64,000 nt of DNA from Coptis chinensis (Eukaryota; Streptophyta; Magnoliopsida; Ranunculales; Ranunculaceae), in the NCBI GenBank assembly GCA_015680905.1, contig CM027378.1, positions 87,883,501 through 87,947,500 of the forward strand, given 5' to 3'. Made by a program: the position numbers and the translations under genes. Positions 6,721-58,898 of the stretch are shown piece by piece. Positions within the stretch are counted from its first letter, which is position 1. Each line of letters starts with the position of its first letter. The notes under the pieces are model-generated. The model was not told where the DNA came from, ran no database searches, and was given only the letters and a program-made list of their open reading frames with translations.

Positions 6721-7446
6721 CAATGAGAACTCTACTGCCCTCCTATTTACACAATGGGTCCTCTACAGTTGCTCATTGATCAACTACCACAGAACACCCA
6801 ACTGAGATCGATTGGATCCAATCTATGGGTAGAAGATCAACAATGCATTCAATGGCTTGATATTCAAGAACTCAACTCGATTGTTTATGTTAATTTTGGT
6901 AGTCACACCGTCATGACTACTGAACAACTTATTGAGTTCGCTTGGGGACTGGCTAATAGCAAACAACCTTTCTTGTGGGTCATTAGATTTGATCTTGTCA
7001 TCGGCAAAGCAGCAATTTTTCGACCAGAGTTCACACAAGAGACTGCAGACTGGGGTATGATATCAAGTTCGTGTCCACAAGAACAAGTCCTGAGTCACTC
7101 TTCCACTGGCGGGTTCTTAACACATAGTGGCTGGAATTCTACAATGGATACTATATCTGGTGGTGTTCCAGTTATCAGTTGGCCTTTCTTCGGCGACCAA
7201 CAAACCAACTGCAGGGAAGCCTGTGTTCATTGGGGTATTGGTATGGAGATAGACAATAATGTTAAAAGAGACGATGTAGAGGGACTTGTGAGAGAGTTGA
7301 TGGAAGGTGAAAAAGGTAAGGTAATGAAGAAAAAGGCAATGGAGTGGAAGAAGAGAGCTGAAGATTCGACAGAACCTAGTGGATCTTCCTATGTGAACTT
7401 GGATAACATGATCAATGAAGTGCTAATCCAGAAGGAACTGGTTTAG
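6721..7446 (+). pseudogene. UGT85-type glucosyltransferase pseudogene, 3' part
   Basis: Rest of exon 2 of the gene that begins at 958, resuming after the copia element. One extra base near 6737 compared with the intact paralogue puts the start of this part out of frame. From 6754 the frame is open for 230 codons to the stop. The PSPG sugar-donor motif is readable at 7075-7206 (CPQEQVLSHSSTGGF, then HSGWNS, then FFGDQQ). Its first residue, normally Trp, is Ser, and RPD upstream reads RFD. The terminal Gln, typical of UDP-glucose users, is kept. Similarity to the gene at 42376 is strong throughout, so this is a recent tandem duplicate that died. Confidence 0.92.
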
Positions 7447-8060: not shown

Positions 8061-8720
8061 TCGCCCCCTCTTGAAACTTTCAAATTTCAACCACGAAAAA
8101 TTTGAATGTTTCGAGAACCAGAACAACTTCACCAATTTCAAAATTCAAAAAATCAAGCGGTTACAGCTGTAAACAACCCAGTTATATCGAAATTATAAAA
8201 GCCTTATTTCACTTTCTCTCTCTTCACTTATTTGCAAAAACAACTTGAGAGAAAAAACACCCTAAACCCCACCACCATTAATATCTTCTGAAAAGCTCCA
8301 TCTTGGTCGTATTCGCTGTTGCTATCAGCAAATCTTTCTGCACAATATCACGTTAGTGAAAAGAAAAACTTAACATGCTATTCCTTATTCCCACTGTAAC
8401 GTTTTCTAAAAATATTTTGAATGATTTCGCCATCTTCTTTTTCCAGATTATTATACTTAGGGTTTAGGCTTTGAGTATTCAAATATTACCTGTTTATCTC
8501 TATACTAATTAGACAGTGAATTATAATTTTTGACAGTATGGCTAAGAGAAAAACTTGTGTTAACTTTATACGCACTCTCTCGAAACAGTCTTGGCTTCAA
8601 CGTTAAGAACATATGCGTTTGAGACACAGTTCTTCACCTCGAACCCCGATATTATCATCCCGTGACCTCGATACGTGCTTAGTAAATAATATATTATAGG
8701 ATAAACTGCTGTTTTAACCC
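8061..8720 (-). other. Gypsy 3' non-coding region
   Basis: Internal sequence between polypurine tract and the 59-bp repeats, with no coding content recognised. Long non-coding stretches between integrase and 3' LTR are usual in Tat elements. Confidence 0.6.
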
Positions 8721-8876
8721 TTGTACTCTTGGTCAACTAACAGTCTCCCCCTTGTACAAATTTAACAGCTTAAAACACATTGTACTCTTGGTCAACTAAC
8801 ATTCTCCCCCTTGTACAAATTTTACAGCTTAAAACACATTGTACTATTGGTCAACTAACATTCTCACCCTTGTTTT
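8721..8876. repeat. 59-bp tandem repeat, about 2.7 copies
   Basis: Starts at 8721, 8780 and 8839 with TTGTACTCTTGGTCAACTAA. The period is 59 and divergence is low. The third copy is cut where the CACTA begins. Confidence 0.85.
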
Positions 8877-8889
8877 AACTACAAGAAAA

Positions 8890-9060
8890 ATGACTTTTGG
8901 CCACAGGTACAGATTAGCTTTAGCCACGGTCATAAGCTGTTGCATAATAACCACGGGCTTTAGCCGTGGCTAAAACTTTTGACAGGTGTGGCCAAAGTTC
9001 TGTGCGGTTTGAGTTTAATTGGTTTTTTGGCCACGGTCATGTTTCTATAATGAACCGGCC
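8890..9060. repeat. CACTA left subterminal repeats
   Basis: Five to six copies of a TTTGGCCACGG / AGCCGTGGC-like motif in both orientations directly inside the left end. In En/Spm such motifs bind the regulatory transposon protein. Confidence 0.85.
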
Positions 9061-10178
9061 CAAAAATTAGGTCCCGAATGTAAACCGCCACAAATACTCT
9101 ACGTCTACGTTTATCGAAAGGTTTCTTTTTTTCGATAATACAAAAACAAATACAGTTTTCTCGATTTTCTTCCCTCTCCTCTCTCACGGCAGTGACGCAG
9201 ACACGCCACCCCCCCTCTCTCTCAGGTAACCCTTTCTCTGTTTTTTTCTTCTTTTTTTGCTAATCTCACTTCAAACATCTCTAATTCGCTATCTTTTCCA
9301 GAAAAACTTCATCTTTAATCACTAGGTAATTGCTCTTCGTCTTTCCCCTCATGTCTCTCTATCCCCTCTCACAATTCTTGTTTTCTAAGAGTTAGTGTTT
9401 ATCAATTTCGATGAAAATGTAGTGTTTGTAAGGTTTGTTTTGTTAAAATTTAGTTTAAATGAAATAATATCACTCATGGTTTATGATATTTGTTGTGAAC
9501 AGGTCCGGATTATTGTTTTTTTTCATTTACATCAAGGTGAGTTTTTCTCCCATCTCTGGTTTGGTGTTAACTTGAAATGGGTTTTTTCTAGAAAAGTTGA
9601 AATTTGTTTTGTTTTACTTCTCTTGGTTATAGATAATGTTAGTACTGATTCTATCACCAAATGGGGTTGTGTTATTGTTATATGTTAGTCCTGATTCTAA
9701 GTTAAAATGGGTTTGTGTTGGCCGTTTGAGTTTTTTAGGTATAACTTTGTGTTATATTGAATACAAGTTAAGATATTGAATACACCGCATCGGGTTAACT
9801 CAAATCTGTTGCTAATGTGTAAGGCTGTATAATTATATTTCTTCTAGATAACATCCTACTTGGTTGCATATGATATCATCTTTGTTGTTACTGTTCTTTA
9901 TCTAGTTTCAATTTATTTTTTTAAGTGAGAATGTAGTTTGTTTTTTCGTATGCATGCCTCAATCGATCCATTTTTTTGTGTGTTTCCAATTTATTTGAAT
10001 TTATGGGTGCAACTAGGTTAGATTGATTGTTGGATGTAGTACTTGTGCTATTTTAGTCTCTCCCAAATGGGAGTTCAAGTATTTACTTATGTGGTGGTCT
10101 ATTATGTGTATGGTTTACCTGCCATTGTATTTTCAATTCTAACTATTTTTTATTTATTCATATTGCAAGAACTACAGT
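9061..10178 (+). other. CACTA 5' leader of transposase gene
   Basis: No coding region recognised. A possible splice donor CAGGTAACC lies near 9222 and the tract is T-rich, which fits a long 5' untranslated leader with introns before the transposase ATG at 10179. The open frame at 9395-9688 is low in complexity and unlike any family known to me. Confidence 0.5.
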
Positions 10179-13100
10179 ATGGAGGGGTTTGGGGTGATAG
10201 ATAAAAGTTGGATTGATCTACCAAAAGAGTACGATCATTTTATTCATGGTGTTAATCAATTTGTACAATTTGCAAGGGATAACTGTCACCACAAGGATGT
10301 GATCCCATGTCCATGTGATAACCTGAGAAATAGGGTCGAAAGCACTAACCCATGAGGTAGTCACATTGCATTGTTACCAAAAAGGCTTCTACAAACAGTA
10401 TACATTTTGGAGAATGCATGGAGAAACAAGTCAACCACCAAGTGTGGCATTTGAAAGGGGTGGAAGGTCAAATTCCACTAATTTTGAGGTGGGAGGGGAC
10501 TTCCCCATTTTTGAGGAGAATGTTTAGTACTGTCGTAGAAGAACTTGACGGTGATAACTTGGATGCTGTTATTGAACAATGTTCAACAGATGGTGCTCGA
10601 GGAATAGTTGAGGAAGATCCTATAGTTGAGGAAGAGCCTAACACAATTGAGTTCGATAATTTTCGTGAGGTTTTGCGTCCCTTATATCCTGATTGTGAGG
10701 ACTTTACAGTTTTGAAATTTGTCGTCAAGTTGTTTCGGTTAAAGGTTAGACATGGGTGGACAGACAAGAGTTTTACGGGACTCCTCGAATTACTTCGTGT
10801 GGCTTTTCCACGTGACAACAAGACTCTGGAGAATACTTATAGGGCAGAAAAATTAATAAAAGAGTTGAGCCTAAAATATGAGAAAATTGATGCTTGCCCG
10901 AATGATTGCATGCTATTTTGGAGGGATACTTGTACTACGTGTGGAGCGTCGAGGTACAAATATGCTGATATCGAACAAAGGAAGAAACATATTAGGATTC
11001 CAGCAAAGATACTTCGATACTTTTCAATTACGGAGAGGTTAAAGAGGTTGTATAGTGTACCATGGGTGGCAAAGGAGATGTGTTGGCACTCGGAAAATTG
11101 ATTGAAAGGTGGAGAGATGGGGCATCCAGTTGACTCATCTAATTGGAAATTAATTGATCGGAAGTATAAGAACTTTTTAGCTGAAGCTCGTAATGTTCGA
11201 TTAGGACTAGCGACAGATGGTTTCAATCCTTTTGGAACTTGTGGCACATTATACAGCTCTTGGCCTGTAATGTGTGTTGCCTATAACCTTCCTCCGTGGC
11301 TTTGCATGAAACCCAAATTTACCATGCTCTCTTTACTCATCGAAGGGCCACGACAGCCAGGAAAGGATATTGACATATATTTACAGCCTCTAGTTCGTGA
11401 ATTACAATCTTTGTGGAATACCGGGGTGACTGTGAAGGACGCAAACATAGGCAAGATGTTCAATATGTGTGCAGTTTTGTTATGGACTATCCATGACTTT
11501 CCTGCGTTAGGTAACATATCTGGTTGTAGAACCCATGGCAAATATGCTTGTCCCGTTTGTGGCCCAAATACCTCCTCATTGAGACTCCAACATGGCCAGA
11601 AATTTGCTTACATGGATAGTAGACGATTCTTGCCCTCCTCGGATGCTAGTAGGATGGACACTAGACCAAGCACCATTAACAAGACTGAAGAGCTTAGAGA
11701 ACAGCCTTTGAGATTGACCGGACTACAAGTTGAACAAATGACACAGAATCTGAAAATGCAATGGGGTAAGGGCAAAGAGAAGGAAAGGGGGAATGGAAAA
11801 AGGAAAAAAAAAGGAAGGGCGGTAGAAAACAAAAAGAGGACAACGGGGATGGGACATGCTTTTTCAAACAAATCGATATTATTTAGGCTTCCATATTGGG
11901 CGAGAGCTTCTTATCCGTCACAACTTGGGCGTTATGCACATTGAAAAAAATGTTTGTGAACTCCCCGATTGCTATGATGTTGAACACAAAAGGAAAACAA
12001 AAGATAACGCCAATGCACGCAAAGATTTGCAACTTCTTGGGATTAAAAGGAAGAATTGGTTGAGTGATCAAAATGGCAAGAAGGTTATGAAGCCTGGGGT
12101 GTTTTGGCTTCGAGCGGAGGAGAAAAAGTTGTTCCTTGCGTGCTTAAGAGATCTCAAAGTACCTGTTGGGTTTAGTGGTAACTGGAAGAATATTGTCTAA
12201 GGCGGTGCGAAGGATTTGAGTGGAATGAAGTCTCATGATTATCACATTTTGATGCAACATTTGCTTCCAATGCTAATCCAACATGCATATCGAGATAGGA
12301 AGGAAGTCCGACATGTGATCTTGAGTATTTGCACATTTTTTCGTGCGTTATGTTCTAGGAGACTTGATGTTGACACTTTACATGCACTTGAGAGGGGTAT
12401 GGTCAGGACTTTATGTGAGCTTGAAAAAATTTGTCCTCCATCGATATTTGTAATAATGATGCATCTACCTATTCACTTAGCGTATGAGGCTCGTATGTGT
12501 GGACCAGTATTCTATCGTTGGATGTATTTGTTTGAGAGGTAATTCTAACTAATAAGATTGTTTACTTAGCTTCATGGTTGGTTTCTGTTAAGTTATTCTG
12601 TTATAAAATTCTTAATTTTGTGAAGGATGATGAAGGTCTACAAGGATTATGTTACAAACAAGGCACGTCCTGAAGGTTGTATCGCGGAGCGATACTTGAA
12701 AGAGGAAACCATGAACTATTGCACTGGTTACAAAGGAGGGAATAGTCTTCTCCAGAAGCTTGAGCGAAAGTCTAGTCGTGAAGAAGTAATACCATCAGAT
12801 GTGTTTGATAGCGAATTTGATGGGGCTGATAAAGTTGGCCCAGTTGGTCTGGGTCATACTTATCATTTGGTAGGTGTTGAATATGAGCAAGCACGCAATT
12901 GGGTACTGAAAAGCCATCCAAGATATGATTGGGTACACGTATGTATTTCTAAATTTTAAAAGTTTAAATTATAACTTCTATATACTTAAACAGACTATTG
13001 CTTTAACTAATACATATATTTATAAACGTAATATCCTATTCAGAGAGTACACTGCAGATTTGGAAGCCCGTAGGCAGTGTGCAGGGAGGAAGGCAGGCCA

Positions 13101-13817
13101 ATATAGGGTGTCCATGGACGATGAGTTCATTCCTTGGTTGAGAAGACAACCTGAGTTTGAAGACATGGAGGAAGATTCTTTCAAAAATATAGTGGCGGGA
13201 CCAGTGAGCTGTGCCATGGCGTATAAGAAGTATTGTGTCAATGGTTTCCTCTTCATTACAAAAGACTATCAGGAGAATAAGAGGAACCAAAATAGTGGTG
13301 TTTGCACAGAGTGTCCAACTACATTCCGGGCTAGCGCGAAGGATAAGAACCCAAGAGAAGATGTTGCGTATATTACGGTGTTCTTACGAATATCATTCAG
13401 CTTAAAGTATCGAGATGGGTACCACCGCTTTTGTTCAAGTGTGAATGGGTTAAACTTAGACATGGTGTGAAGCTAGATGTGGAAGCGAACCTTAAGTTGG
13501 TAAATTTGTCAAATCAAATTAGTTCGGATAAAATGAGTGACGAACCATTCATTCTTGCAGATAAAGCTTCTCAGGTTTTCTACTCTAAAGATCCAAAGGA
13601 TCCCGACTGGCATATGGTTTTGGAAGTCCCAAGAAAGGTGTATTGTGATCAAGATGAAACATGTCTTCTATCTGATGACCGAATTGAAGTTAATCCTTCT
13701 TATGTGGAGCCTAGTAACCTTGAACCATCCACAGATGATCTGATTTTTAACGATCCAGACGATATGTTTGTGGTTGTTGAAGACACTAGGAGGAAGAAAA
13801 GACAAAAAATGAATTAA
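10179..13817 (+). pseudogene. CACTA TNP2-like transposase, broken
   Basis: Would bind element ends and catalyse cut-and-paste transposition. The ATG at 10179 opens a transposase-associated domain (DKSWIDLPKEY, then IPCPCDN). The TNP2/transposase_21 domain follows (10418-11950; CPNDCMLFW, CTTCGASRYKY, GHPVDSSNWK, GFNPFGTCGT, CPVCGPNT). DUF4218 comes next (11940-12900; VMHIEKNVC, LPIHLAYEARMCGPV, RWMYLFER), then DUF4216 (13041-13800; FKCEWVK). Introns with good borders lie at 12539-12625 and about 12940-13042. Lesions: stop near 10353, frame change at about 10415, stop at 11099, frame change near 11910, stop near 12198, frame change near 13370. Order and content match intact plant CACTA transposases, so it was a full gene before decay. 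Confidence 0.9.
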
Positions 13818-14092
13818 TTCACTTGAACTAAATGCTTATCTGCATTAACTATTTTTGAATTTTGAATCTATGTTTGAATTTTGATTACCTGTGTTTGATT
13901 TTTCAGGTTACACAATTATAAATGGATATCATGTTTTCTGATTTGTTTTGATAGATTAAATGTTATGCAATATCTGTGTTTTGATACATCATGTTTTAGA
14001 TACTTGAAAAATGCATGTTTTGAATATTAAGAGTTTTTGGAACTTGTTACAATATGTACAGCAACCTTCATGGGGGAACTCCATCTCAAAAT
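13818..14092. other. Spacer inside CACTA
   Basis: AT-rich, no coding content seen. It separates the two transposon genes. Confidence 0.5.
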
Positions 14093-17000
14093 AACTTGAA
14101 CTTGTCCTAAGTGACTCGAGGAGGACGACATGGAGCGGACTAATTATGGTAAGAATTTTGAATTTTGTCTAGTTATGTGTGTTATCTTGGGGTACCGTGA
14201 TATGAATGCATGTGGAATTAGATTATCAGATGGTTCTTAAATTGTAATTCATTTTTTCTTTGATCTTAATATTTTCTTTAGTTATTACAGAATTGCATCC
14301 GAACTTTAATGTATACTAATTGACAAGTTTACTATGTACTTTACAGATAGGACTCCATCTACTCCGTAATCATCCAATGCTCCTAAGGAGACTAGAGGTA
14401 AGGCAAAAGGAATGTCGGATACACCAAATACTGAAAGAAAAATGTTTGGTTAACATTGGACCATCTTGAACAACCATGTCACCCTTTTAGCAGAGGTAAG
14501 TAGGTTTTCCTCCTCAATGTGGTGTACTTGTAATGCGGCGCGGATGTTCGGATATGCTATGATACTTTTCCAACCGCTACCAAAACATAATGCTTAGTAG
14601 GCATCTTTGAAACATTGGAAACCAGCTTCGGGTTTGTGGGACGTCCTAGCATCAATACGACATACACTAAAAAAGTCTTGGGTGAGGCATGGAGGCGTCA
14701 TAAGAGCACCTTGTATAAAAACTTAGTCAAGGGCAAATCTCCTACTATTGTTAAACAAGGACCAGCTCCAGAAGGTGTCAATCTTGAAGATTGGCGGGTT
14801 TTTGTTGATATCTGCAACACTGAAAAATTCCAGGTTATCTAATCATTAGTTTATTAGTTGTGAATCTTATATGTATATTCTCTTATATATTGTTTTGTAT
14901 ATAGGCTGCTAGTGAAAGGAACATTATAAACCGGTCAAAACAAATGCAGCTCCCGCCATATTGGGAGGACACCCACCCAAATTATTCGACAAAGAGATTG
15001 CTAAGGAATAGAACAAGCCACCCATATGGTTGCTAGGCCTGAATCTTATATCCGGATACACAAGAGGAAAGCTCCATGCACGTAACCGGTTGAGTGGGGG
15101 AGGTAAGTGTCATTTTCCCGTGGGAGGGATTGTTGGTAGTAAGTTATTTAAGTTGTATCAAGTTTTGATTGCAGTCTTGAGCTTTAGTGTAATACTTTTA
15201 CTTGGTAAGATCAGATTATGGTTTCACTCCGTTGTGTTGAATATGAGAGGATTAATGAGGACATGTCCGCAAATTCAGGGTCTCCAATGACAATCACCGG
15301 CGATGTCGTGACAAAGGGTATGCAAATTAGGATGTCAAGAGTGCATTAAATGTTTGTGCTATATTGTAGGTAAAATGAAATGTGTTTGGATACATGTGGT
15401 TGGCAAAGATAGCAAAATATGTCGGGCTATGGGTCCAGGGGTCAACAAAACAAAGAATGAAGAGCATGGAGCCTATTTTGGATCAAAACTATCACTTGGC
15501 AGAAGAAAACTCCAAGCTATGGAAGGAGACTCGAACAAACCAAATGAATTTTGCTATGCAATTAGAAGAGATTAGGTCAACGATATTGAGGCAACAAGAA
15601 CCATCCACGACCAACTCTTTTGAACTTCCAAGAGTATACCTCGCTCGAAGAATGCAACCTCGGTATCACGATTGTCTCTTTTAATGCTTTACTTAAGCCT
15701 TTGTAAGTTGTTTGATCTTTTTATATCCAACACCTTTGTTTTTCAGCCGGAAACCTCAAAGATTGGCAAAGAAGTTAACTTACTTGGTGGTTGGCCTCTT
15801 GACATTGTCGCGAACCGGATGTGTTAAAGAAGTTGACCCCACCTACAAGTTCCATGAAAGGTGCTTGGGAGAGAGATCTTACTTAGTTTACATTGATGAA
15901 GTACATGCACAAGATGTTTGCTCTACCATGCCCCTCATGATGCGCGGTGTAAGAATCTAGGAGAGAGTTGCCCAGAAATGTTATATGGCCCAAGTCATGT
16001 GTTGAGTTTCTGTCATCTACATCAGCGGTCTTGAATAAGTTTACTATCTTTTTTTTTATGATACATGCCTATGGGCATGTTTGACTATGTTATCTCTTTT
16101 GCTATTTTGAAACGCTGTTTCTATGTTCATGTCCAAGCTACTACCAAACCGGTATCATATTTTTTTATTCAATGTAATACTTGTCTTATTTTGCTAATAT
16201 CAATGTATTGAATGTTTGCTTTCTCTGTTTTGCTAACCCATTTTAACTCCGCCAATGCAAGTAAACTTTACGCTTGCATTTGCATTGCCGGGTCCCAAGC
16301 CCGTAAAAAGGAGGAGGGAGAAGTGGTGTATAATATGTTTCTCTTTGTATTTAATTCTGTTTATTTTTTCTCGTGGCTGCGGGGAAGAGCTACCAAGAGG
16401 TACAAGGGCAACCAATATCATCAAGTATCCCTTCGGTAATGGTAGGTCCATCTATCACTCCTAATGTCCCCAAGAGCATCCGCTTCTAGCCATGTCATTG
16501 ATCACAGTGCATGATTCCAATCCAAGAGACTTGTGTGCTCATATATGATTTCCTTTTTGCAGTTTAACTCTATCAAATGCACAAATACTAATATCTAACT
16601 AATGATATACTCTATTTTGAAGACACCACCCAAGAAGATTACCATTGGCCAAAAGAAGTCATTTGATGCGCTTGGGACTACATCAACCCACCAAGGTACT
16701 CATTGCATTCTCTTTTAATATATATTTTTTAATTTTAATTTTTTTTAATCATATGAACTGCTTTATTTGGTATTACATAGTAAGAAGCAAAAGGTATCCG
16801 GGGCACTTTTCGATCAAAGCATCAAACAACTAAATGATGTAACTCACGCCGCTGGAGTTAATTTAAGGGTATATATCTTTTACATTGCTCTTTATGTTAT
16901 ATTATACTCTGTTTGACATTTTGGGTATCTAAAATGGTAACAATTGTGTAATCTGTGCAAGTTTTGTTATTTTATTTATCATGTTTAGGAAGAGCAGCTA

Positions 17001-17146
17001 TTTTTCTGGCCCTAAGGATGAAGGTCAAACTTCTGAAGCAACTAGAAGGGTTGTTCAAGAAGAGGAAGAACGGCTTGTATTGCAAAAAATCCCTTTACAG
17101 AGAAAATTGGCAAAAATCAGTTTAGACCCTATACTTTGTTAAGAGC
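14093..17146 (+). pseudogene. CACTA second gene (transposase_24/TNPA-like), broken
   Basis: Fragmented exons read like the second ORF of plant CACTA elements. At 14630-14833 (W.RHKSTLYKN, then LEDWRVFVDICNTEKFQ) and 14904-15010 (INRSKQMQLP) the text resembles the transposase_24 domain. At 15430-15600 there is a charged coiled-coil (LAEENSKLWKETR). At 15750-15950 comes a module with VKEVDPTYKFHERCLG and YLVYIDEVH, which I recall from CACTA second ORFs. Further exon-like pieces lie at 16620-16695, 16783-16868 and 17020-17146, the last a Glu/Arg-rich tail ending in a stop. Introns with GT/AG ends separate them, and several frame changes break it. Such proteins bind the subterminal repeats. The last three pieces could instead be another captured fragment. 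Confidence 0.65.
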
Positions 17147-17302
17147 CATTCTTGTTATTATCTTGTCAAATATCTTGTCATGACTAACATTTGGGTCCCC
17201 TTTTTTTGGCAGTGTCTAAATCTGGTATAAAAAGTGTAAGCAAGGATGTGGAGCGTTGTTTGCCACTGGTAAGATATTAGCGGCGAAAGAAGAAGAGATT
17301 TG

Positions 17303-19816
17303 ATGGGGAATATGAATGGGAGAGAAGAAGGAGATAACGAGGAAGATCCTAATCGCGGATCCATCGATACGGATGATTATGAAGTCGACGGCCTTCCCCC
17401 GCCTTCCGATTCAATGTTGGGTGCTTCCAACTTACCTCCTTCGAGCCCGACCTTCCGATCTCCTCTCATGTTCGCTCCTCGGCTTCCAAAGTGGCTCCCC
17501 TACAAAGAGGAGGTGATGCCCCACCCACTTTCAATCACATCCGGATGAATGACCCACACAATTCTCTAGACGCACCACAAGAACAAGGGATTCCTACCTT
17601 GATCACATGGACCTTTGGTGGTAACATTGTTGCTGTCCAAGGATCTTGGGACAATTGGACATCAAGGTACTCTTTATCCTCAATATCCAAACTAGACCGT
17701 AAACCTTTTTCTTACTATAATCGGTTTTACGTAGGGAGGATACCGCAGAGGTCGAAAGGACCACTCCATTCTCCCGGGTGCTTCCATCCGGTATATATCG
17801 AGACAGTTTCCTTGTGGACGGCGAGCACAGATACATACCTGATCTTCCTTGCATAGCTGATGATACGGGCCTTGTTGATAATCTTCTTGATGTGCATGTA
17901 AGTTTTTTCTAAAAAAATTATTATTCATGATCTGCAATCTTTTGATTGAAAGTATGTGCATGTTTCCATGGGATAATGCTTGCGTTATTCTTATTTTGGA
18001 CAAATAATCACATCCCACTTTTTCTCGGGAGGGTAAGAGTTTAGAAGCAATATTCAATGGAGATACCATTGGTGGCATCTAACACCTGAGGAGCTATTGT
18101 TGTAGGGTTTAACCTTATAAACAGTTTGATTTAGGTTGCCAAGACAAGATGGGTGGCCTGTATGATTGAGCAAACTGCATGCATGCAGATTATGCATGTG
18201 AACCGTTCAACTCTGCTTTTTAGGAACTCATGATTAGTGAAATCGGGATCAGTCTTCTAGGCGATACACTAACTTTCATAGCACATATTGGCTTTTAATT
18301 GAGAGCTTTTTTCAATTGCCAATGTTCCTCGCATCGGTGGAAGCATACATGCATATCATGCTTTATCTTAGCTGCAGACGTTCCTTAAGTTAGCCCTCAC
18401 AATGAACTTTTTGGTGCTACCTCATAATTGACCCTCACAAGAAAGCTAATGGCTACTGCATATCTATTAAGTTAACCTTTTGAGAGGGTTTATGAAGACA
18501 AGGGTAAATATTATTTGTGAAAAAGGACTTAAGTATAAAGTCAGTTTAGGAAATAATTCTACTAATACCATAAATTTAGCTTTAAATCTATGATGAAACA
18601 AACATGTCAGATAGTGGACAGACTATTTGAGTATATGTAGTTCGATTTTGATTATATTTTTTTCTCTGCTGATCTGAAAATCAATTTTCTAATGATGCAT
18701 CTTTAATGTACCTACTAGATGGTTTTGATAGAATGATAGTCATTATAGAATGCAGCACACTCTTTTACTTGGTCCCTAGTGATACTAATTACATCAAAAG
18801 TGTGCCATTTAGAGAATGTATTGAATCAATTCTGGATAGAGGGGTGTACACAAGATTTGGTTTGGAGGTACAAGAATGCTCTAAACAAAATTATACCTAC
18901 TGCACTGAATCATGAAGTGTAACACATCCGTTCGGTGTTAATATTCCTAGGACGAGAACATGATGAGTTGTCATTCGAGATGTATATAGAAGATAGATTT
19001 TTGTTTATCTACATTTTACAAGCGTATGCTAGATACTTCAATTCTTAGAGGGACGGCTTTAATAGGAAACTTGTACTCTACAACTCTAGCCTTTATTTCA
19101 GGTTAACTAAAGATGGAAACCAACTTTAACCTCTAAATCCTAACCTGTAGAAAGCCATGAGGAGAAAAGGGGTTTAACAATGAAAATATTGTGGCATTAT
19201 CTTTTGCTCTATGTACTAAACTTTGCTCTTTTTGCTGTCTGTACTAAACTTTTAAATCTAGAAAATGCTATTTTAGGGCAAAAGTTTGAGGGTTAAGATA
19301 AGCCTTGGAGGTTGGTATCATTACTTGTTTTTCCTTGTTGGCATATATAATGGGTTTTTCTCCGCCATTTGTAAAAAGTAGTTTTTTTTTTGTTCTTTTT
19401 ATGTTTCTCCTAATTAATGCTTTACATGTCTTTTTGTTCTTTTTGAAGACTCTAGCATCAACTATTTTTCTATAAAGTTGCTTGTCACCGGGTTGTCGAT
19501 TATGTGCCCGAAATTTGAAGGCATTGCTGAATTTGAGCCTCCTCCCTCACCGGACTCTAGCTATGGTCACACATTCCCGTGGGACGAGGACTTTCTTGAA
19601 AAGAGCGGGGCTGGCTGTTCCACTCCCATTACACCTCATGTTACTTTCGGTACACGTAATCGATCCTGAACCATCTACAAAGCCTCAACATGTTGTTCTC
19701 AACCATCTTTATATAGACAAAGGATGGCCTTCTCAATCTCGGTTCCTTTTGGGTTTACTCCACGTGTTTCACCAAATATGTCACTCAGAGTCGTATACAA
19801 GCCTCTTATAAAATGA
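17303..19816 (+). pseudogene. Captured SnRK1 beta-subunit (AKINbeta/AMPK beta) gene copy
   Basis: A near-complete copy of the regulatory beta subunit of the plant energy-sensing kinase SnRK1. Exon 1 (17303-17666) starts MGNMNGREE, with Gly2 as in N-myristoylated relatives, followed by a Ser/Pro-rich stretch and the start of the glycogen-binding domain (IPTLITW, GSWDNWTSR). Exon 2 (about 17736-17897) continues it (FLVDGEHRYIPDLPC, LLDVH). A large intron (17898 to about 19496) precedes exon 3 (to 19816) with PPSPDSSYGHTFP and the C-terminal AMPKBI domain (KPQHVVLNHLYIDKGW), ending YKPLIK. A one-base loss near 17488 and further indels in exons 2 and 3 break the frame. Introns are kept, so DNA was copied, not mRNA. 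It lies within CACTA boundaries, in the direction of the transposase. Confidence 0.9.
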
Positions 19817-20044
19817 AGAAATGGACTCCCCTCCTCTCCAAAATTCCCTCGCACTATCTCAGATATAGCGGTTTCATGTTAGGTAGGAGGTCCAAGGAGG
19901 ATGGGAGGAGAAAAAACAGTCTGAGGAAACTGAAAAGATCCGAAAAGTTAATGAAGTAAGTATCTAGTTCAGACAAATTTGGGTTATGAAGTTCCTTTAT
20001 GTTTCTAATTTCGTTTATGGAAGTTCCTTTATGTTTTTAATTCC
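19817..20044. other. Junction between two captured genes
   Basis: Sequence between the SnRK1 beta stop and the first BIG exon. It probably contains 3' flank of one gene and 5' flank of the other, and the join is not identifiable by eye. Confidence 0.4.
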
Positions 20045-23000
20045 GCAACCCGCGCCCTTGAATCCATGTTGAAGGAGTGCTCCCCTAAAAAGTATGCCGA
20101 TCTTCAAAAGGCCATCCACACCTATTTAGGTTGGTATTCATTTATTATTTATGACAACTTATTTAATATTCCTTCTTTCTTTATTACATCATATCATATC
20201 ATATTTTTGCATGTTTTGCGCAGCATTACCAAAGGAAACCACTTCAACCGACCACGAATCAAGCAAAGATCTTCACCGAAATGCCGTACATACATTCTTA
20301 CCAATATATTTTTTTAAACCTTCTCTTTTATATTTAAATTAACCGGTAATTTGTCTTCGCAATTTCTGCTTCACTTAGTTCTTCCGATGAACCCCCGGCC
20401 CCAAATACGGATGGGTCACACTCAATCCCGTGATACTACCCAAGGATCGATGTTTGCTAAACCAAGTGGAAAGTCTTTGGAGCTATTACAACTGCTTTAG
20501 CTAGTCTTTGGACACACATTACAAGGGGATCGTGGAGCTTGTCTTACACCCACTTAGACTTGCATTTGAAACCAAGAATTTAAAACTCCCCGAGCCTGCC
20601 CTTGATTGTCTTCATGTACATTTTTCATCTCTTTCAATCAGAACTTGGACTTTGTGTCATTCTTTCTTTCAAGAAATCTTTTGGATACCTTAATATGATG
20701 CGATTCTTTGAATGATCAGATCTCACGTAAACTCATTGCTTATGATCATTTAGAAGGTGATCCCGGATGGATGGTGCTAAAAATGCTTCACTATTTACGG
20801 ACATTCCAACATGGTTTGTGGTTGTGTTGATAATTCTTCGTCCGATAGGTACGTTGGAGATTTCCCCAATTTTCACAACATTTCTAGCTTGTACATGCTT
20901 CTTACTTTTGTTGACTGAATTTGTATTTGCGATTTTAATTTTACAAGTCTTGAAGGTGCTTCTTACTGCTGTAGCATCACACAAGTTCAGAGGTATATTC
21001 GAGGGGTTGAACGAGAAGTTGCTTTCATTTTTTGTTAATTTTGGAAAATTAAACTCTTGTCTTGTACATTCTAACTATTAACACAGTCATTGTGATTGTG
21101 TGTTTCATTTTAAAAACTTCATTAAGCATTGGTGAAATTACAATCACGGAAAATATGTCGTATACTTCCCACATATTTTCCACATATGATGCATATATTA
21201 GGCCAGATTTTTGCCTCTTCCGTTTCGTATCCATAGTAAGAGTTCTACCCAACAACAGGGTCCATATGAAGAAGTTGTATTTGGTCATTCTGGAAGCTCC
21301 CCATCATATGTTCACATAAAAGTTTGCAATTAGCCGATCTGTCCTGCATGTGGGAAAAAGCACCCGCCTTTACAGAGAAGGGGTCTGTATCACTTGATAA
21401 CTTTTTTCTAGTAAATAATGAACAGGGGTAGTTTGTAATTCTATTTATGGAATTAGGTCAACTCATGGTAACAGTTAGTATGTAATCAATAACAATACTG
21501 AAGATACACTCTACTTGGAGTCGACAAGATATAGAGTCTCCCCGTGTTATGTAAGTAAAGGAAAACCGTGGGTCCCGTGTGATAAAGTTATATTGAAGTC
21601 ATGTGCCCATATAGAGCCTTACTCTGTTGGGTTGAATTCAGCCAAATTAATGTGGTTGATTGCAATTTGACGGAGCCGGATACAAGTATGGACGAAAGTG
21701 TTATCGGAATATAGGCAAGATAACTTATCAAATCCAATCCATTTACTTCCTAATATCTCCTTGTCTTTACAGAGTAATCGGATTCTCCTCCACCATCCGG
21801 TAGACATGCGCGATACGTGAAGCTTTCAATCGGGCGGTGGTGGCTCAAACTCAAACGATGAAATTTCGTTGGACGACCATAATGGGAAAGGAATCATTTT
21901 GGGGATGCACTTTCCATTAACCGGATAAAGATACCACTATTGCTTCTATTGAAGAACTTCGAATCGGGTGGTGGTGCCGATATTAAGGTGCTTCCATATT
22001 CTCTTTAGTTTTAGATTGTCCGTGTTATTTTTTCCAAGCTTATTTATGCAGTTTTTGTGGTTATTGGATGATGGTAAAAGCTACATTACCTGTGTACCAT
22101 TCAGGGATTAGAAGTCGTTCTTGACAAAGCCGCGCATCTTGAGGATGGAAAAAAGATACCACAAAGATGCAAGAGGTGCTATTGCCTAAGTTTGTTACGG
22201 TCTATTATTACTTATTTTTCATGGGTGGGCTCTCCTTATTGAGGTGTTTCTAAAAAGCAAGTCTTTTTACTTTTCGTGAGGAATTGACCTCGATAGCATG
22301 AGTATTGGGCAACGGATGCTTTACTACTATTTCGCACCCTTTGTAAGGTTGGCTTTCCACAAACCATCTGTTCTGTACTACCCAAGGGTGTATTTTTAAA
22401 ATTTCTTACTACTTCACTCATCATTTTCATTATTCTATGCTCATTATTTTGGTTTTTCTATGGCATTCAAAGCCTTCATTATGTGGAATAACAAGTACTC
22501 TAAAATTCACAGATGGGCATGAAGGAAGAGAATGATGAAGTTACGACCAAGACTAGGCTTTTATCTCTTGAGCTTTTACAGGTTAGTCCTATGGCCTTCT
22601 ATGGCCTTCACTATTATCCTGCGCATATCATTGCCTCTTTGGTTGATTTTTTATGTGGGAAGCTTCGATTCCTCTTCTAACAGGAGGGTAAATTTTCTTA
22701 AGAAATTTTTTCACCATTACGTTGTGCTTTAGACCTTATTCGGGAGAAAGGATGTGAAAAAAAATATATTATATGTTTGTTTACACCACTCATTTGTTGG
22801 CCAAACAATTATCACATGATCATTTTGCAAAGAACAAAAAGTCAAGTGTCTTCTGTTGTTTGATGTCGTGAGTGAAGTTGCTTCTTCTTTGTGGTATGTA
22901 TCATTAAAAGAATGCATTGAAAGCAGCAGAGTTTCAAAGACCAAGGATATAAGCTTTATAGATTTTGCTTTAGGATCTGCACAAGGCCTAGGATCTTCAA

Positions 23001-23390
23001 GCATATGTCCTACGGATTTAGCTACCACACTGGTTCTCTTTCTTGTGGAAGTGTTTGATTCTTTATGAATGCATGATAAGGTTGGTATATGATTAAAAAA
23101 TATATTTTTTTGCAGAGTTTATTGGAAGGGGCTAGTCATTCTTTTACGAAGAATTTTCATTTCATTGACTCGATAAAAGCGTATCTTTCTTATGCCTTGT
23201 TACGCTCGTTTCTCAATCCTCGGTTATATTCCGTAAATCTTCATGTTTCAGTTTTGCCTTCTTTCTATTTTCTATGCTTGATGCTTTGTGATTTATTCCA
23301 ATGGTACTAATTAGATTTTTCACAATATGCAACCGAATCTTCAATTGCTTCTACGTTTTAGGAAAAGCCTTAAAGTAAGTATGCATTGTT
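20045..23390 (+). pseudogene. Captured BIG-type ARF-GEF fragment (N-terminal half)
   Basis: Exons of a brefeldin A-inhibited guanine-nucleotide exchange protein, which activates ARF GTPases on Golgi membranes; BIG5-like by recalled wording. Readable pieces in order: TRALESMLKECSPKKYADL (20050-20120), [19 protein letters not shown] (20545-20605), LIAYDHLEGDPG (20730-20767), ILQVLKVLLTAVAS (20937-20980), GGGADIK (21970-21990), HLEDGKK (22135-22156), GIDLDSMSIGQR (22283-22318), ENDEVTTKTRLLSLELLQ (22525-22580), and a block with [20 protein letters not shown] (23130-23200), then FRKSLK near 23360. These cover the dimerisation and HUS regions. The copy stops before the catalytic Sec7 domain. Introns are present and several exons carry frameshifts, so no exchange factor can be made. 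Confidence 0.85.
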
Positions 23391-23721
23391 TCGGAGCTCT
23401 TGTGGGTCTATCAAACCTGAGTAATGATGAGCGTGTTTGGGATACTTCTTGTCATATGGGGCCTTGTCAAGGAAGGGCTTCTTGGGAAACCTGTGAATAC
23501 TGAGATCCCAAAAGCATGTTGATTGTGCTAGTATGTGCTTTCATTTGTATAAAGTATGATGTCAATAAAATTGTTAAAAGTAGCCCTGGCTCGACCCTTG
23601 GTGAAACCCCGCAAAAGATTCTTGTGGGTTTGATTGAAATGATAGAATTTTGTATGACCTGCGGGGTGTGACGAAATTGTATGAATTGTATGGTGCGGAA
23701 TCAATTTTTTTATCCAATTCA
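23391..23721. other. Spacer before CACTA right end
   Basis: Possible residue of the next BIG exon/intron at 23391-23520, then unassigned sequence leading to the subterminal repeats. Confidence 0.4.
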
Positions 23722-24060
23722 ATACATTTGCCACGGCCATAAACTGTGGCTAAACATTAGATACAGTCCAATAAAAGACATTTGCCACGGCCTAGACCTG
23801 TGGCTAAATTATAGATCCATTCTACAAAATGCAGGGGGACGGGGTCGTGTGAGCATTAGCCACGGTTTAGTGCTGTGGCAAGTGGAAAAATTCACCACGG
23901 CCCATGTAACTGTTTATAACCGTGGCATAAAATGAAGCTTTACCCACGGTCTTTAGCCGTGGCCAAAGATTAGCCACAGGCACATTGCCAACGGTCGTGC
24001 AACGGCTTATAACCTTGGCAAAAGGTCTTTAGCCATGGCCAATGACCGTGGCAAATGCTC
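23722..24060. repeat. CACTA right subterminal repeats
   Basis: About ten copies of TTGCCACGGCC / ACCGTGGC-type motifs in both orientations. They are the counterpart of 8890-9060 and define the right side of the element. Confidence 0.88.
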
Positions 24061-24070
24061 ATTCTTCATT

Positions 24071-24655
24071 AGGATCTATAGATCACCCGGATTTTTTACC
24101 CGAACTTGACATTTTTGCCAAGAACTAGATTTTATTGACCTGAACTCGTATTTCTGCCAAGAACAGGATTTTATTGACCTGGTATCGAGATGAGGATCTA
24201 CAGATCACCAGGATTTTTTGACCCGAACTTGACATTTCTGCCAAGAACTGGATTTTATTGACCTGAACTCGCATTTCTACCAAGAACAGGATTTTATTAA
24301 CCTAGTATCGAGATAGGGATCTACAGATCACATGGATTTTTTGACTTGAACTTGACATTTCTGCCAAGAACTGGATTTTATTGACCTGAACTCGCATTTC
24401 TGCCAAGAACTGGATTTTATTGACCTAGTACCGAGATGAGGATCTACAGATCACCAGGATTTTTTTACCTGAACTTGACATTTCTGCCAAGAACTGGATT
24501 TTATTGACCTGAACTCATATTTCTGCCAAGAACAAGATTTTATTGACCTAGGATCGAGATGAGGATCTACAGATCACCAGGATTTTACTTGATCTGGTAT
24601 CGAGATGAAGATCTACAGATCACCAGGCTTTTGCTTGACCTATTATCAATCATAT
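24071..24655. repeat. 122-123-bp tandem repeat in gypsy 3' region
   Basis: Units start with AGGATCTAYAGATCAC at 24071, 24193, 24316, 24439 and 24562, then a shortened unit at 24608. Each holds two versions of a TGCCAAGAAC...GATTTTATTGACCT half-unit, so the array is itself compound. It lies between the integrase stop and the 3' LTR of the gypsy element. Confidence 0.92.
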
Positions 24656-24906
24656 AATTCTAGAGATACAAAGATCTGTTATACATGGATAAATATTGAT
24701 TTCGAGAATGACAATATCTTTATTGAATGTATAACCTTGATAACGAAAATTACACCATGATACTTGAAACACTCTTTATTGATAAAATGCTTTCAAATTG
24801 CTTATATTTTGAGGCTTTGGTAATATTACACCTTCAACCATTTTTAAGTAGTAAGCTCTATTGATCCTGACCTTGTGAATGATGTAAGGCCCATCCCAGC
24901 TTGCTG

Positions 24907-42170: not shown

Positions 42171-42375
42171 TTCATAAAGATGAAGACTTTCCATTGAATA
42201 AGAAAAAGAAAATGAGTGCTTTGTATTTTACATTTTTGATATAGTGGTTCGGTTTTAAAGAATTGATTATTTACTATTTTGTCAACGGAAAGAAGAGAAG
42301 GTTACCTCCAGTCTCTACAAGTGTGGAAGACAGAAAGAGTTCCTCTGACGCCTCCCTCTGCATTCTGTGAAAAAA

Positions 42376-43935
42376 ATGGAAATGAAGTCTTCTTTAGCAG
42401 CCAATAAGAAACCTCATGCGATTTGCATACCACTACCATTCCAAAGTCATATTATTGCCATGCTTAAATTTGCAAAACTTCTACACTGCAAAGACTTTCA
42501 CATCACCTTTGTAAACACGGAATACAACCATCAAAGGATACTGAAAGCTAGAGGACCTGATTCACTCAAAGGCTTGCCAGACTTCCAATTCGAAACCATC
42601 CCAGATGGTCTAGCTGTATCTGATATCAATGTCAGTCAAGACATATTAGCCCTTTGTGTCTCCACGACGAAGAACTTTCTAGGCCCATTTCTCAACCTCA
42701 TTACCAAGCTTAACAAAGCATCAGCAGATAACCCTCCAGTTACATGCATCATATCCGATATATTCATGAGCTTCCCACTGGAAGCAGCTAAAGAGCATGG
42801 TATCCCAAATGTTCTGTTATGCCCAGTGAGTGCTTGTCCTTTGATGCTTTATCTTCATTGTCAACACCTAGCTGAAAAAGGACTTGTCCCAGTAAAAGGT
42901 AAATATATATCAAAACCTTGATAATTTTTTCGTTTTTGTCTAGTATTATTTGAACTCAAAGCGAATCTTTACTGATATTTCCTTTTCCCTGACTTAATAG
43001 ATAAGAGTGATTTAACAAATGGGTATCTCAACAAACCTATCGACTCGATCCCTGGTGTAAGGGATATCCGACTCAAAGATCTTCCGAGCTTCTTTTGGGA
43101 TGATGATCAAGCCCTGCACAATTATTTCGATGAACAAGTGCAAAGCGCCTCTAAGGCTTCCGCAATCATTTTCAACACATTTGATGCCTTAGAGAACAGT
43201 GTTTTAGAAGCAATGAGATGTCTACTACCTCCTATTTATACAATGGGCCCTCTTCAGTTGCTTCTTGAGCAACTACCACAGAACACCCAATTGAGATCGG
43301 TGGGATCCAATCTGTGGAAAGAAAATGAAGATTGCATTCCATGGCTTAATACTCAAGAACTGAACTCTGTTGTTTATGTTAATTTCGGTAGTATCACAGT
43401 TATGACTTCGCAACAACTCAATGAATTTGCTTGGGGACTAGCTAATAGCAAACACCCTTTCTTGTGGGTCATTAGACCGGATCTTGTCATCGGCGAAGCA
43501 GCAATTTTGCCACCACAGTTTACGGAGGAGACTGCAGAGAGGGGTTTGGTATCAGGTTGGTGTCCGCAAGAACAAGTCCTTAGGCACTCTTCAACTGGCG
43601 GGTTCTTAACGCATAGTGGCTGGAATTCGACTATGGATGCAATATGTGGTGGTGTTCCAGTTCTCAGTTGGCCTTTCTTTGGTGATCAACAAACAAACAG
43701 CAGGAATGCTTGTGTTAATTTTGGTATTGGTATGGAGATAGATTATAATGTTAAAAGGGATGATGTCGAGGGACTTGTGAGAGAGTTGATGGAGGGTGAA
43801 AAGGGTAAGGGAATGAAGAAACAAGCTATGGTGTGGAAGAAGAGTGCCGAAGATTCAGCAAAACCTGCTGGATCTTCTTATGTGAATTTGGATAAAATTA
43901 TCAAGGAAGTGTTAATCCATACACAAATAGAATAA
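42376..43935 (+). CDS. UDP-glycosyltransferase, UGT85 family, intact
   Basis: Transfers a sugar, most likely glucose, from UDP-sugar to a small hydrophobic acceptor in the cytosol. The wording is closest to my recollection of UGT85A enzymes such as 7-deoxyloganetin glucosyltransferase-like proteins, but the acceptor cannot be deduced. Exon 1 is 42376-42898 and exon 2 is 43001-43935; the intron (42899-43000) has GT/AG ends in the usual UGT85 position. 485 residues, normal for the family. The N-terminal catalytic His is in PFQSHI (residue 25) and its partner Asp in IISD (about 128). The 44-residue PSPG motif is at 361-404, starting WCPQEQVLRH and ending FFGDQ; the final Gln suggests UDP-glucose. 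HSGWNS replaces the common HCGWNS, and PFQSHI replaces PAQGHI. The ATG at 42376 opens the frame; 42382 is the alternative and is the one shared with the pseudogene. No signal peptide or membrane segment is visible. Confidence 0.93.
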
Positions 43936-52393: not shown

Positions 52394-53240
52394 GGTTTGG
52401 CTATACTACCACTCTTATACTGCCACTCTAATCTCACACTTCTCCTCAGCCGTTCGATCTCGCCTCAAGATCTGATGATCTAATTCACTGATAAAACTGA
52501 TATTTCAAAATTTCGCGTTATTTCAAAATTAAAAAAAAAAACGAAAATCACCAAATACGCGAAATTTTGTTCTCTTTCTCTCTCGGCTTCTTCTTCTCCA
52601 AATCGTACCAAGCTTCTGGATTAAGGTATTTTTCCACTTTTAATTCGTTTGATTTGTTGTTTAATTAACTTGGATTCGTTTGAAATAAACCTAGTAAACT
52701 TTATTCTTGGATGTTGTTTATATTGTTGTTTAAAACGCGAAATTGGCTTCTCTCTCTCTCTCTCTCTCTCTTATAGTTTGTTTATATTGTAACGTCTCTT
52801 GGATTTGATTTGCCTTGATAACTACAAGTTTCTGTATTTGAAGAAAACATTAGACAACCACGTGTATGAACTTTATTCAAATTGGGTAACCTTCTGTGTA
52901 GTGAATTTATTCAAATTGGGTAACCTTTATTCAAATTGGGTACATGTAATAATTTTGCAAATTTCCTTGAAGGGTTTGAATGGTATTTAATTAGCTTTAT
53001 TGGTATTTTCGTTGCCGTATTCTTCATGCTTTAATGGTATTTAATTAGCTTTAATGGTATTTTTGTTGAAGTTTGAATGGTATTTAATTAGCTTGAACTC
53101 TGTCGTATTCTTCATGCCGTATTCTGTCAGAGTTTTGAACTCTGTCAGAGTTCGGTGAACTAGCATATTCGGTAACTCTGTCAGAGTTTTGATGTTTAAG
53201 TTATCTACACTGTTTATGTACATTGGGATTTTTGTCTGTT
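52394..53240. repeat. MULE left terminal inverted repeat
   Basis: Matches the reverse complement of 58350-59234 over nearly its whole length with small indels. It includes a short CT run (52748-52771) and several AACTCTGTCAGAGTT palindromes near its inner end. Confidence 0.92.
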
Positions 53241-53278
53241 TAAGCTATTTATATTTTTAATGTTTTCGATTTATAGAA

Positions 53279-55600
53279 ATGGAGACAGAGACATCAATCA
53301 ATATCGAAGAAGACGTAGTTGGGTCTTCGCATACTAAAGCCCCTATTCAAGGCACGCAAACATTAGTTGCTCCTTATATAGGAATGACTTTTACAAGTGT
53401 TGACGAAGCAAAGACTTACTACAAAGAGTATGGTCAACAAGAGGGATTTGAGACTCGTGTTCGAACGACTTCCAAGCAACAAAATCAGGTGGATTTGGTT
53501 AGTGGTTGTTTACTGGTTTGCTCACGTGAAGGGGTTACCAGAAGAGATGAACTCCGATCAAGAAATACATCAACTATCCGGTGTGGTTGCCAAGCTAGAA
53601 TTCGTATTAAGAAAATAATGCATGAAGATATATATGAGGTCAGCGTTGCTCAGAATGACCATAGTCACGGTTTGGTGGCCACATCGAAGAGAATTTGCAT
53701 GAAAACTAACAAACATATGCCTGAAGCAGCGAAGTGCTTAACCGAGATGTTTAGTGATAATAGTTTACCTATTAGGAAAGTGGCATCTGTCTTCCATGGA
53801 GAGGAAGTTGGGTTTACACAGAAAGATTGTTAGAACCATCATTATGGTTTGACCAGAAAGATGCCTAAAGAAGGTGATGCAACTGCCGTGCTGAAATATT
53901 TTATGCAGAAGAGTACCGAGGATCCCCAGTTCTACTACGCTATTGATTTAGATGAAAATGGGACTGCAGTGAACTTTTTCTGGGTTCATGGGAGGTCTCG
54001 ATGCTAGTATGACTATTTCGGGGATGTTGTGTCTTTTGATACCACATATCGTACCAATGCATATTACATGCCTTTTGCCCCTTTTACTGGAGTCAACCAT
54101 CATTATCAGTCGATTCAGTTTGGTTGCGCATTGTTGCTTGATGAGACAGAAGATACATTCATATGGCTATTTAAGGCCTGGCTGGCAGCCATGGGTGGTC
54201 GTACGCCAACTGCAATCATCACTGACCAGGATAGAGCGATGACTGCAGCCATTGCCAAAGTGTTCCCTAATGCTCGTCATCGTTACTGTCTTTGGCATAT
54301 TATGTAGAAATTCCAAGAGAAGATGTCATTTACCAAATTTGAGACATTGGTAACTGAGTTGAAGAACATTATTTCTTTTTCGTATAGGATTGTTGATTTT
54401 GAGAGAAGATGGTGTACAATCATTGAGAAGTATGAGTTGTCTGAAAATCCTTCGTTGACAGAGATATATTCAATGCAGGAGAAATGGGTTCCTTGTTATC
54501 TCAGTGGTACCTTTTTTGCTGGTATGCACACGGCTGGTCGAAGTGAATCGATGAATGCTCATTATGACCAGTTTGTCAATTCGACGATTACGCTTATGCA
54601 GTTTGTACATGGTAATGAGAAGTCTTTGGCTTTGCTTGCTAGGAAAGAAAGAGATTCTAATTACCGCACCGAGCATAGTTCACGGATTATGCCTAACGAT
54701 GCTTTCCTCCTTATGCATGTTGCGAAGGTCTATACGATCTCAATATTCAATAAATTTAAGGAGCAACTAGAAAAGGCAAAGATGGAGTACAAAATTGATG
54801 GGGAACAGATTGACAGGTATGGAACCGAAAGCTACATGGTGAAATGGAGAGACCCGCTGAAGAAGTCTGTTTGGAGAGTGAGTTTCGATAGAGGAACCTT
54901 AGAGGGAGACTGTGAATGCAAGTACTTTCAGTTTATAGGGTTGCTTTGTGGTCAAATCTTAAAGGTTTTTATGCGTTATGAGATTGAAGAGATTCCAAGC
55001 CATTTTAGATTGATACGGTGGATGCAAAAGGCTAACACTTATAGAGCGGAGTTTGGTACTGGATTTGTGGTCGGGAATGTCTCAAATGAACCTTTGAGAA
55101 TGGCTCATTCTATCAAGGTTGCTTCTCAAGTGGCTTACGATGCGTCACATACTTTTGAGGGTTATTCATATTTTATTGAAAAGATTGGTGAAATGGCTAT
55201 TGGAATTTCAAAGTTTAATGAAACTTCCTACGAAGGAGACGCAGATGATGAAGAGCCTCCAGTTTCAGAGCCTTCGATACCTTCGGTTAATACATCACAT
55301 GTTTTTTTTTATTTGAATGTTTAATTTGATATAAATTTAGTGTTTAATTCGGTGTTTAATTTGATATAAATATTTATTTTAATTCGGTCTTTATTTCAGC
55401 TATTGATTTTGAATCCCAACATTTCTCAAACAAAAGGGAGGGGGAAGAAGAAAGCGGATAGATAGAAATCCTCCAGAGAGATAGCCCTAAACAATGAGAT
55501 AGTCATAAACAATTCAGGAAGAAAGTGTCACAGATGTGGACAGATTGCTAACCATGACTCGAGAAATTGTCCGGAGAAAAATAATACGTAATTTGTGAAA
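53279..55600 (+). pseudogene. MULE transposase, FAR1/FRS type, broken
   Basis: Starts METETSINIEE 40 bp inside the terminal repeat. The FAR1 DNA-binding domain is at about residues 40-130 (FTSVDEAKTYYKEYG, CGCQARIRI). A stop at 53831-53833 ends the first frame. A frame change near 54000 leads to the MULE catalytic domain (SFDTTYRTNAYYMPF, IITDQDRAM, CLWHI). Another stop follows at 54305-54307, then 333 open codons (54323-55324) with SESMNAHYDQF and a SWIM zinc finger CECKYFQFIGLLCGQ, where Gln replaces the expected His. A CCHC-like knuckle CHRCGQIANHDSRNC near 55527-55571 lies beyond the last stop. Plants have domesticated such proteins as FHY3/FAR1 factors, but inverted repeats here mark a true transposon. 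Confidence 0.9.
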
Positions 55601-56432: not shown

Positions 56433-56700
56433 CAGGAGCAATGTTCTGACAAAAGACTTCCACTTTTTGAAGAGTTGGGTCGTTCTTGCCGAAATTGTGA
56501 CAAAGAGGCATTTGCTATTGCTGAATTCCTGCCTCAGTTGCGTTTTCTTCGTCTTGTTGAATGCACACTGACAGACAGTGGCTTACAAGCTATCCTCAAT
56601 GGATGTCCCCAACTTGAATATATTGTTCTTCGAAACTGTTTCAACATCAATCTTGGAGGGAATTTGCTCAAGAGATGTGTACTAAGGTCTTCTTGCTACA
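56433..56700 (+). pseudogene. Captured F-box/LRR (SKIP19-like) fragment
   Basis: An exon-like piece following an acceptor (TTGCAG) reads DKEAFAIAEFLPQLRFLRL, then LTDSGLQAILNGCPQLEYI and NINLGGNLLKRC. This is the leucine-rich-repeat tail typical of plant F-box SKIP19-like/FBW2 proteins, substrate receptors of SCF ubiquitin ligases. The F-box itself is absent. It sits inside MULE ends on the transposase strand, so it looks captured. About 85 codons are open. Confidence 0.82.
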
Positions 56701-57547: not shown

Positions 57548-57871
57548 ATAACTGTAATCCTGTGAAAGAAGCTCTGACGAAGATTACACATAATAAATTC
57601 AAACTACTAACCAAATACACATACTAAATTCACATACACATGCCAAATTCTCTGACAGAGTTCAAATATACATACCAAATCCTTCCAAGATTTATACATA
57701 CTAAATTCAAACTACTAACCAAATACACCTGAATTTTCCGAAAATACAGTTCCAAAGCCTCGAGTCTAACTGATGGTTACCTCCATAGCAACATCATTCA
57801 AAGCAGAAGCTACATCCAAAGCAACTTAGGATAACTCATCATCGACAACGCCACACAACATCCAAAGCAAT

Positions 57872-58818: not shown

Positions 58819-58898
<80 letters not shown>

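Follow-up and report, generated by a model that had tools for sequence, protein, structure and literature searches.

It is very likely that a transcript of a Coptis chinensis gene for the beta subunit of an energy-sensing kinase (AMPK/SnRK1) was retroposed into a single CACTA element and that the element, once loaded with this cargo, spread through the genome. The analysis is centred on a window of 64,000 nucleotides (C2:87883501-87947500), in which a beta-subunit-like gene copy runs from an ATG at 17303 to a TGA at 19816, and on searches of a genome of 935.6 Mb. The initial annotation had recognised that a CACTA element contains, at 17303-19816, a copy of almost the entire beta-subunit gene, which is confirmed here, with an element extending from about 8877 to 24072, and it had attributed the copying to the DNA level, a view that is contradicted by the evidence on the insertion presented below. 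Six CACTA-borne copies of the same piece were found, namely that of the window and those at C9:28.30M, C5:51.27M, C7:92.82M, C6:43.65M and C1:42.61M (3' part only). According to the scenario proposed here, LINE-1-like machinery would have reverse-transcribed a transcript of the gene at C1:10.19M and placed the product in a single CACTA element, with duplication of AAGATATTAGCA, and the template would most likely have been partly spliced, with intron 1 out and introns 2 and 3 still in. Descendants of the loaded element would then have brought the copy to the at least six places that it now occupies, and at C6:43.65M introns 2 and 3 would later have been lost exactly by recombination with a spliced cDNA.

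The surroundings of the gene copy are CACTA sequence, as is evident from the presence of TNP2, from subterminal repeats, and from the complete ends and 3-bp TSDs of relatives. The element of the window (CMC/EnSpm; 8877..24072, + strand) starts with AACTACAAGAAAAA, of which the first base is altered, and terminates in a decayed 3' end whose limit was set by eye; both of its ends are decayed and no TSD was found there by eye. Its TNP2 transposase frame (Transposase_21, PF02992; E 4.3e-86, residues 4-216 matched) is located at 11102..11941 on the + strand, while 3' subterminal repeats of the CCACGG/CCGTGG type occupy positions 23713..24052 (+). The subterminal repeats reported by the initial annotation are borne out by motif counts at both ends, since the density of CCACGG/CCGTGG/CCACAG/CTGTGG amounts to 5 per 1024 bp at the 5' end and 12 per 968 bp at the 3' end, versus 4 per 11000 bp in the middle. 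Relatives on C5 and C7 that bear the same gene piece possess complete ends, CACTACAAGAAAAA...TTCTTGTAGTG, together with 3-bp TSDs (CGT/CGT in C5, ATG/ATG in C7). This CACTA family is large, with at least 40 separate places, the window among them, detected by a 3'-end search in which 40 of 183 candidates were scored, and we infer that the loaded element was moved by the TNP2 transposase.

Some further features of this element and of the window may be mentioned. A 123-bp tandem repeat at window positions 24092-24632 begins about 20 bp past the decayed CACTA 3' end, and in the C6 element (L043, C6:43.65M) a stretch matching window positions 19886-20343 is present twice. Elsewhere in the window, long inverted repeat arms, 93-99% complementary, are found at 52416-59226 around frames at 53279-55324 that were judged by eye to be FAR1/MULE-like, and UDP-glycosyltransferase-like frames, also named by eye, are present at 6754-7446 and 42367-43935, their adjoining stretches being 78-84% alike at the DNA level.

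An intact parent gene was located at C1:10.19M, where four exons, separated by GT-AG introns of 70, 67 and 1477 nt, provide an intact frame of 280 aa. The spliced product of this gene (280 aa) matches the Pfam profiles AMPK1_CBM (7.6e-28) and AMPKBI (5.1e-23) as well as 20 chains of solved structures, the best of these being AMPK beta-2 (6b2e, 1.2e-28), SnRK1 being the name used for this kinase in plants. Its neighbours are P450-like and PPR-like frames, named by eye. The locus at C9:84.00M represents a paralogue in which exon 4 is broken; both this locus and C1:10.19M are situated outside CACTA sequence, their match around the gene beginning only at window positions 17267-17287. Genome-wide, the AMPKBI profile gave eight hits, seven within the beta-subunit set and one at C7:40.57M. 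Related gene fragments without a match to exon 4 were observed at C5:68.66M (L044), C5:94.23M (L045) and C3:78.43M (L046), the second of which has about 0.9 kb in common with the first and likewise with the third. Intron 1 is present in both C1:10.19M and C9:84.00M, and C5:68.66M and C5:94.23M show an intron-sized gap at the same place, so that the presence of this intron is taken as ancestral. The C5 and C7 copies are so close to C1:10.19M that this gene, or one of its close alleles, is taken as the parent: when exons and 5'UTR are compared with CAG/CTG sites masked and gaps skipped, each of these copies differs from C1:10.19M at 4 of 717 sites, while the corresponding counts are 20/719 for C9:28.3M, 23/716 for the window, 22/716 for C6 and 21/683 for the paralogue at C9:84.0M. 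That C9:28.3M, the window and C6 appear about as far from the parent as the paralogue does is put down to base errors.

Within the window, the copy has the structure of a semi-processed beta-subunit retrocopy with a deleted 3' end (17283..19893, + strand). Its exons 1 and 2 are fused (17303..17666, +), the parental intron 1 of 70 nt being absent at 17482/17483, and they are followed on the same strand by a retained intron 2 (17667..17734, limits within 1-2 nt), by exon 3 with the second part of the glycogen-binding domain (17735..17897), by a retained intron 3 (17898..19497) and by exon 4 with the AMPKBI region (19498..19816), whose frame is broken as assembled and to which the AMPKBI profile gives no match. 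As assembled, indels are present in exons 2, 3 and 4. With respect to the domain motifs claimed by the initial annotation, the glycogen-binding domain is recovered in two pieces (3.0e-5 and 7.5e-5), but the window copy is absent from the eight genome hits of the AMPKBI profile, and its AMPKBI region is visible by DNA alignment only; similarly, the statement that introns were kept holds for introns 2 and 3 but not for intron 1. The 5' copy of the TSD, AAGATATTAGCA, is situated at 17271..17282 (+) and has G as its last base in the window. At the opposite side, a deletion junction at 19893..19894 corresponds to about 479 bp that are gone relative to the C5 copy, a deletion that eliminated both the A-run and the 3' TSD, along with the remaining 3'UTR and some 300 bp of CACTA sequence. 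As the A-run and the 3' TSD were thereby removed, the insertion is unrecognisable from the window alone.

The copies elsewhere in the genome were retrieved with positions 17303-19816 as query (54 rows, 40 of 41 candidates scored), and 13 loci were mapped onto window positions 8300-24800. The copy at C9:28.30M shows 94% identity over the whole query. Each of the five copies in which the border between exon 1 and exon 2 is covered lacks intron 1 at the splice junction, the junction being letter-exact in C5, C7 and C9:28.3M and having a few altered bases in the window and C6. Introns 2 and 3, on the other hand, are kept in four of five copies and absent from one (C6), and those of C5 and C7 are partly deleted internally. 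Pairwise divergence, with CNG and CG masked, ranges from 0.9 to 1.4% among the CACTA 5' flanks of five copies (2780 columns) and from 0.3 to 4.8% among seven 3'-flank stretches (341 columns), both ranges being inflated by base errors.

Other sequences related to the gene were encountered as well. An 84-nt piece of exon 2 (window 17551-17634), belonging to the glycogen-binding part, is found at 84-91% identity in at least 24 other places (for example L056, L057, L058 and L059), and the four contexts examined align mutually on both flanks; judging from these alignments, another repeat family seems to carry this piece. A second set of copies comprises C3:109.87M (L040), C8:11.61M (L039) and C3:63.3M (L041-L042), of which the first two are without introns 1 and 2 and keep part of intron 3. 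In all three the match ends at window position 19019 and is followed by other sequence that they have in common, and perhaps this set constitutes a second semi-processed copy family.

The limits of the copied piece, where parental and CACTA sequences part, are situated about 20 nt 5' of the ATG and at an A-run at the 3' end of the transcript. A direct repeat of 10-12 bp, (AA)GATATTAGCA, flanks the insert in all four copies in which both sides are available (C5, C7, C6 and C9:28.3M), with AAGATATTAGCA on the 5' side and GATATTAGCA following the A-run, while C1:42.61M keeps the 3' side; one and the same insertion is common to all copies. The corresponding empty site was found in CACTA relatives, 8 of 8 of those fetched reading GGTAAGATATTAGCATAC uninterrupted, with a single repeat and no insert. 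In this search 40 of 365 candidates were scored, and of the 43 rows obtained 13 extend as far as the insertion point, five of them filled and eight ending at 17281; the latter are the eight relatives that were fetched. The A-run at the 3' end of the copies measures 9 to 17; since an A9 run occupies this position in the parent too, it suggests a poly(A) tail but does not prove one. The target GT/AAGA agrees with the LINE-1 motif TT/AAAA at four of six bases. The length of the TSD and the A-run point to a LINE-1-like enzyme, by analogy with the retrocopies described in the available text of Zhu et al. 2016 (PMC4838847). LTR-type retroposition is not favoured, in view of the 10-12 bp TSD and the A-run.

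The loss of intron 1 at its junction, the transcript-like ends, the TSD of 10-12 bp, the A-run and the eight empty sites out of eight argue for an RNA-mediated insertion and against the copying at DNA level that had originally been proposed. Capture of the Pack-CACTA type (DNA-level transduplication), with intron 1 lost afterwards, would explain why introns 2 and 3 are kept, and CACTA elements are known to take up genomic DNA, as stated in the available part of a review (PMC13317346); such a course of events is nevertheless extremely improbable, because the limits of the piece are transcript-like, intron 1 is absent in 5/5 copies, a TSD flanks the piece and the 8/8 fetched empty elements indicate a simple insertion. 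DNA-level capture was rejected on the basis of the TSD, the transcript limits and the empty sites. Intron 1 loss, a TSD and an empty site, all features of retroposed copies, are present, whereas DNA-level collinearity with the genomic parent was not found.

Retroposition into CACTA followed by spread leaves one copy to be accounted for. The copy at C6:43.65M agrees with the others in site, TSD and A-run, yet it is without introns, its intron 2 and intron 3 junctions being identical to the parent's spliced exons. Since one insertion cannot be both intron-free and intron-bearing, C6 needs a second event: either C6 lost introns through a cDNA-mediated process, or the other copies gained them by conversion. 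An independent second insertion for C6 was rejected, as C6 shares the site, the TSD and the 3'UTR base 16969 with C5, C7 and C9:28.3M (the window is gapped at this base). The order that is favoured, and that we hold to be probable by a modest measure, is one in which a partly spliced insertion came first and the intron loss in C6 later. Whether C6:43.65M exactly lost both remaining introns through recombination with a spliced cDNA while its sisters keep them is evenly balanced in our judgement, and such an event would mean that a plant had very recently lost introns by a process templated by RNA. It is possible, if on the doubtful side, that a fully spliced mRNA was retroposed, which is the state of C6, and that gene conversion with the parental gene, spanning exons 2 to 4, restored introns 2 and 3 in the other copies prior to their multiplication. 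This would be consistent with the same TSD and the lack of introns in C6, and also with exon 4 site 16701, which is parental in C6 and shows one common, different base in the four further copies compared. On the other hand, divergence from the parent does not fall within the supposed tract, the counts for C5 being 4/717 in exons and 5'UTR, 22/1181 in intron 3 and 9/226 in the 3'UTR with its poorly aligned A-run included, and exon sites 14375 and 16607 group C6 with the window alone, as sites 14462-14463 do with C9:28.3M. These sites may be errors; if they are not, they place C6 inside the intron-bearing group. Informative sites in the CACTA flanks number three on the 5' side and four on the 3' side, the latter joining the window and C1:42.6M, and none of them clearly places C6.

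The reliability of the assembled letters has to be considered in this regard. In a 3.8-kb CACTA stretch adjoining the gene, the window departs from the five-copy majority at 36 of 80 CAG/CTG sites and the other four copies at 17 to 26 of 80, whereas the window copy differs at 6 of 75 sites of the GAC/GTC control in the same stretch; likewise, 13 of 80 CAG/CTG sites are identical in all five copies, versus 51 of 75 GAC/GTC sites. Of the altered sites of the window, 39 were listed, and about five of these are, by eye, single C-to-T or G-to-A changes. Within the retrocopy, the CAG/CTG sites that differ from the parent number 37/65 in the window, 30/65 in C9:28.3M, 9/31 in C6, 5/61 in C5 and 7/61 in C7. 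The gene pair C1:10.19M/C9:84.00M differs at 16/68 and 10/61 CAG/CTG sites in two counts, values that most of the control words also span, and CCG/CGG is raised in this pair (6/13; 7/17). CAG/CTG differences, many small indels and copy-specific states were observed in window positions 13600-17281 and 17283-19893 and in the same regions of C5, C7, C6 and C9:28.3M. The CAG/CTG excess is probably due to base-calling error at CHG-methylated cytosines, an explanation that leaves the sparing of C5 and C7 within the gene unaccounted for; among the literature matches listed, titles and abstract starts contained no statement on nanopore error at CHG sites. As the CAG/CTG differences are read as base error, frame shifts in the window copy cannot safely be taken as evidence of decay.

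The present analysis provided no evidence of function for the copies. The window copy has neither an intact frame nor a detectable AMPKBI domain, its single changes being untrustworthy given the proportion of altered CAG/CTG sites mentioned above. The notion that selection maintains at least one of the copies as a functional SnRK1 beta gene draws on C5 and C7, in which AMPKBI attains the parent's score of 84.2 bits, and on the frame of C5, which is open through exons 1-3; it is highly unlikely, however, because a 5-bp deletion common to C5 and C7, which may be real, shifts exon 4, a stop is present in exon 3 of C7, many indels affect the window and C9:28.3M copies, and the insert begins about 20 nt 5' of the ATG, so that the parental promoter is missing. 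Antisense or small RNAs derived from the copy might, as the initial annotation suggested, influence the parent gene. Read-through from the TNP2 side would be sense, since the gene copy and the TNP2 frame are on the same strand.

An intron-bearing gene in a DNA transposon is easily taken for a DNA-level capture, while in the present case an RNA-mediated insertion hitchhiked, and other intron-bearing transposon cargo may be misread likewise. Moreover, the occurrence of one insertion in empty, semi-processed and fully spliced states constitutes a natural test of intron loss. In the open-access literature, no retrocopy nested in a CACTA element was found in the titles and abstract starts among the matches listed, nor was anything found on the SnRK1 beta subunit in combination with transposon and pseudogene, and in the available text of a Pack-CACTA paper (PMC8903248) none of five terms on RNA routes and introns occurs.

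Several known systems invite comparison. The LINE-1-like retrocopies of dicots, as far as they are described in the available text of Zhu et al. 2016 (PMC4838847), have a TSD, an A-run, intron loss and the empty-site test in common with the present case, and that text also includes an LTR-associated retrocopy that keeps one intron; here, by contrast, the target was a DNA transposon that multiplied afterwards, and most copies still contain two of the three introns. Murine preproinsulin I is a semi-processed retrocopy according to the available part of a review (PMC3449122), and in both instances a partly processed pre-mRNA appears to have been reverse-transcribed and inserted with direct repeats, whereas here a plant gene is concerned that is carried by a transposon and shows no upstream regulatory sequence in the copy. 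With CACTA transduplication, or Pack-CACTA, in which host genes are carried by CACTA elements (available part of the review PMC13317346), the present case shares a host gene that rides on a CACTA element and spreads with it, but the gene was not captured as DNA, having entered via RNA in the form of a nested insertion. In conclusion, each of these processes is known, and what is new is their joint occurrence in one insertion, for which eight empty sites and a sister copy devoid of introns are available, which makes this a clean and unusual case.
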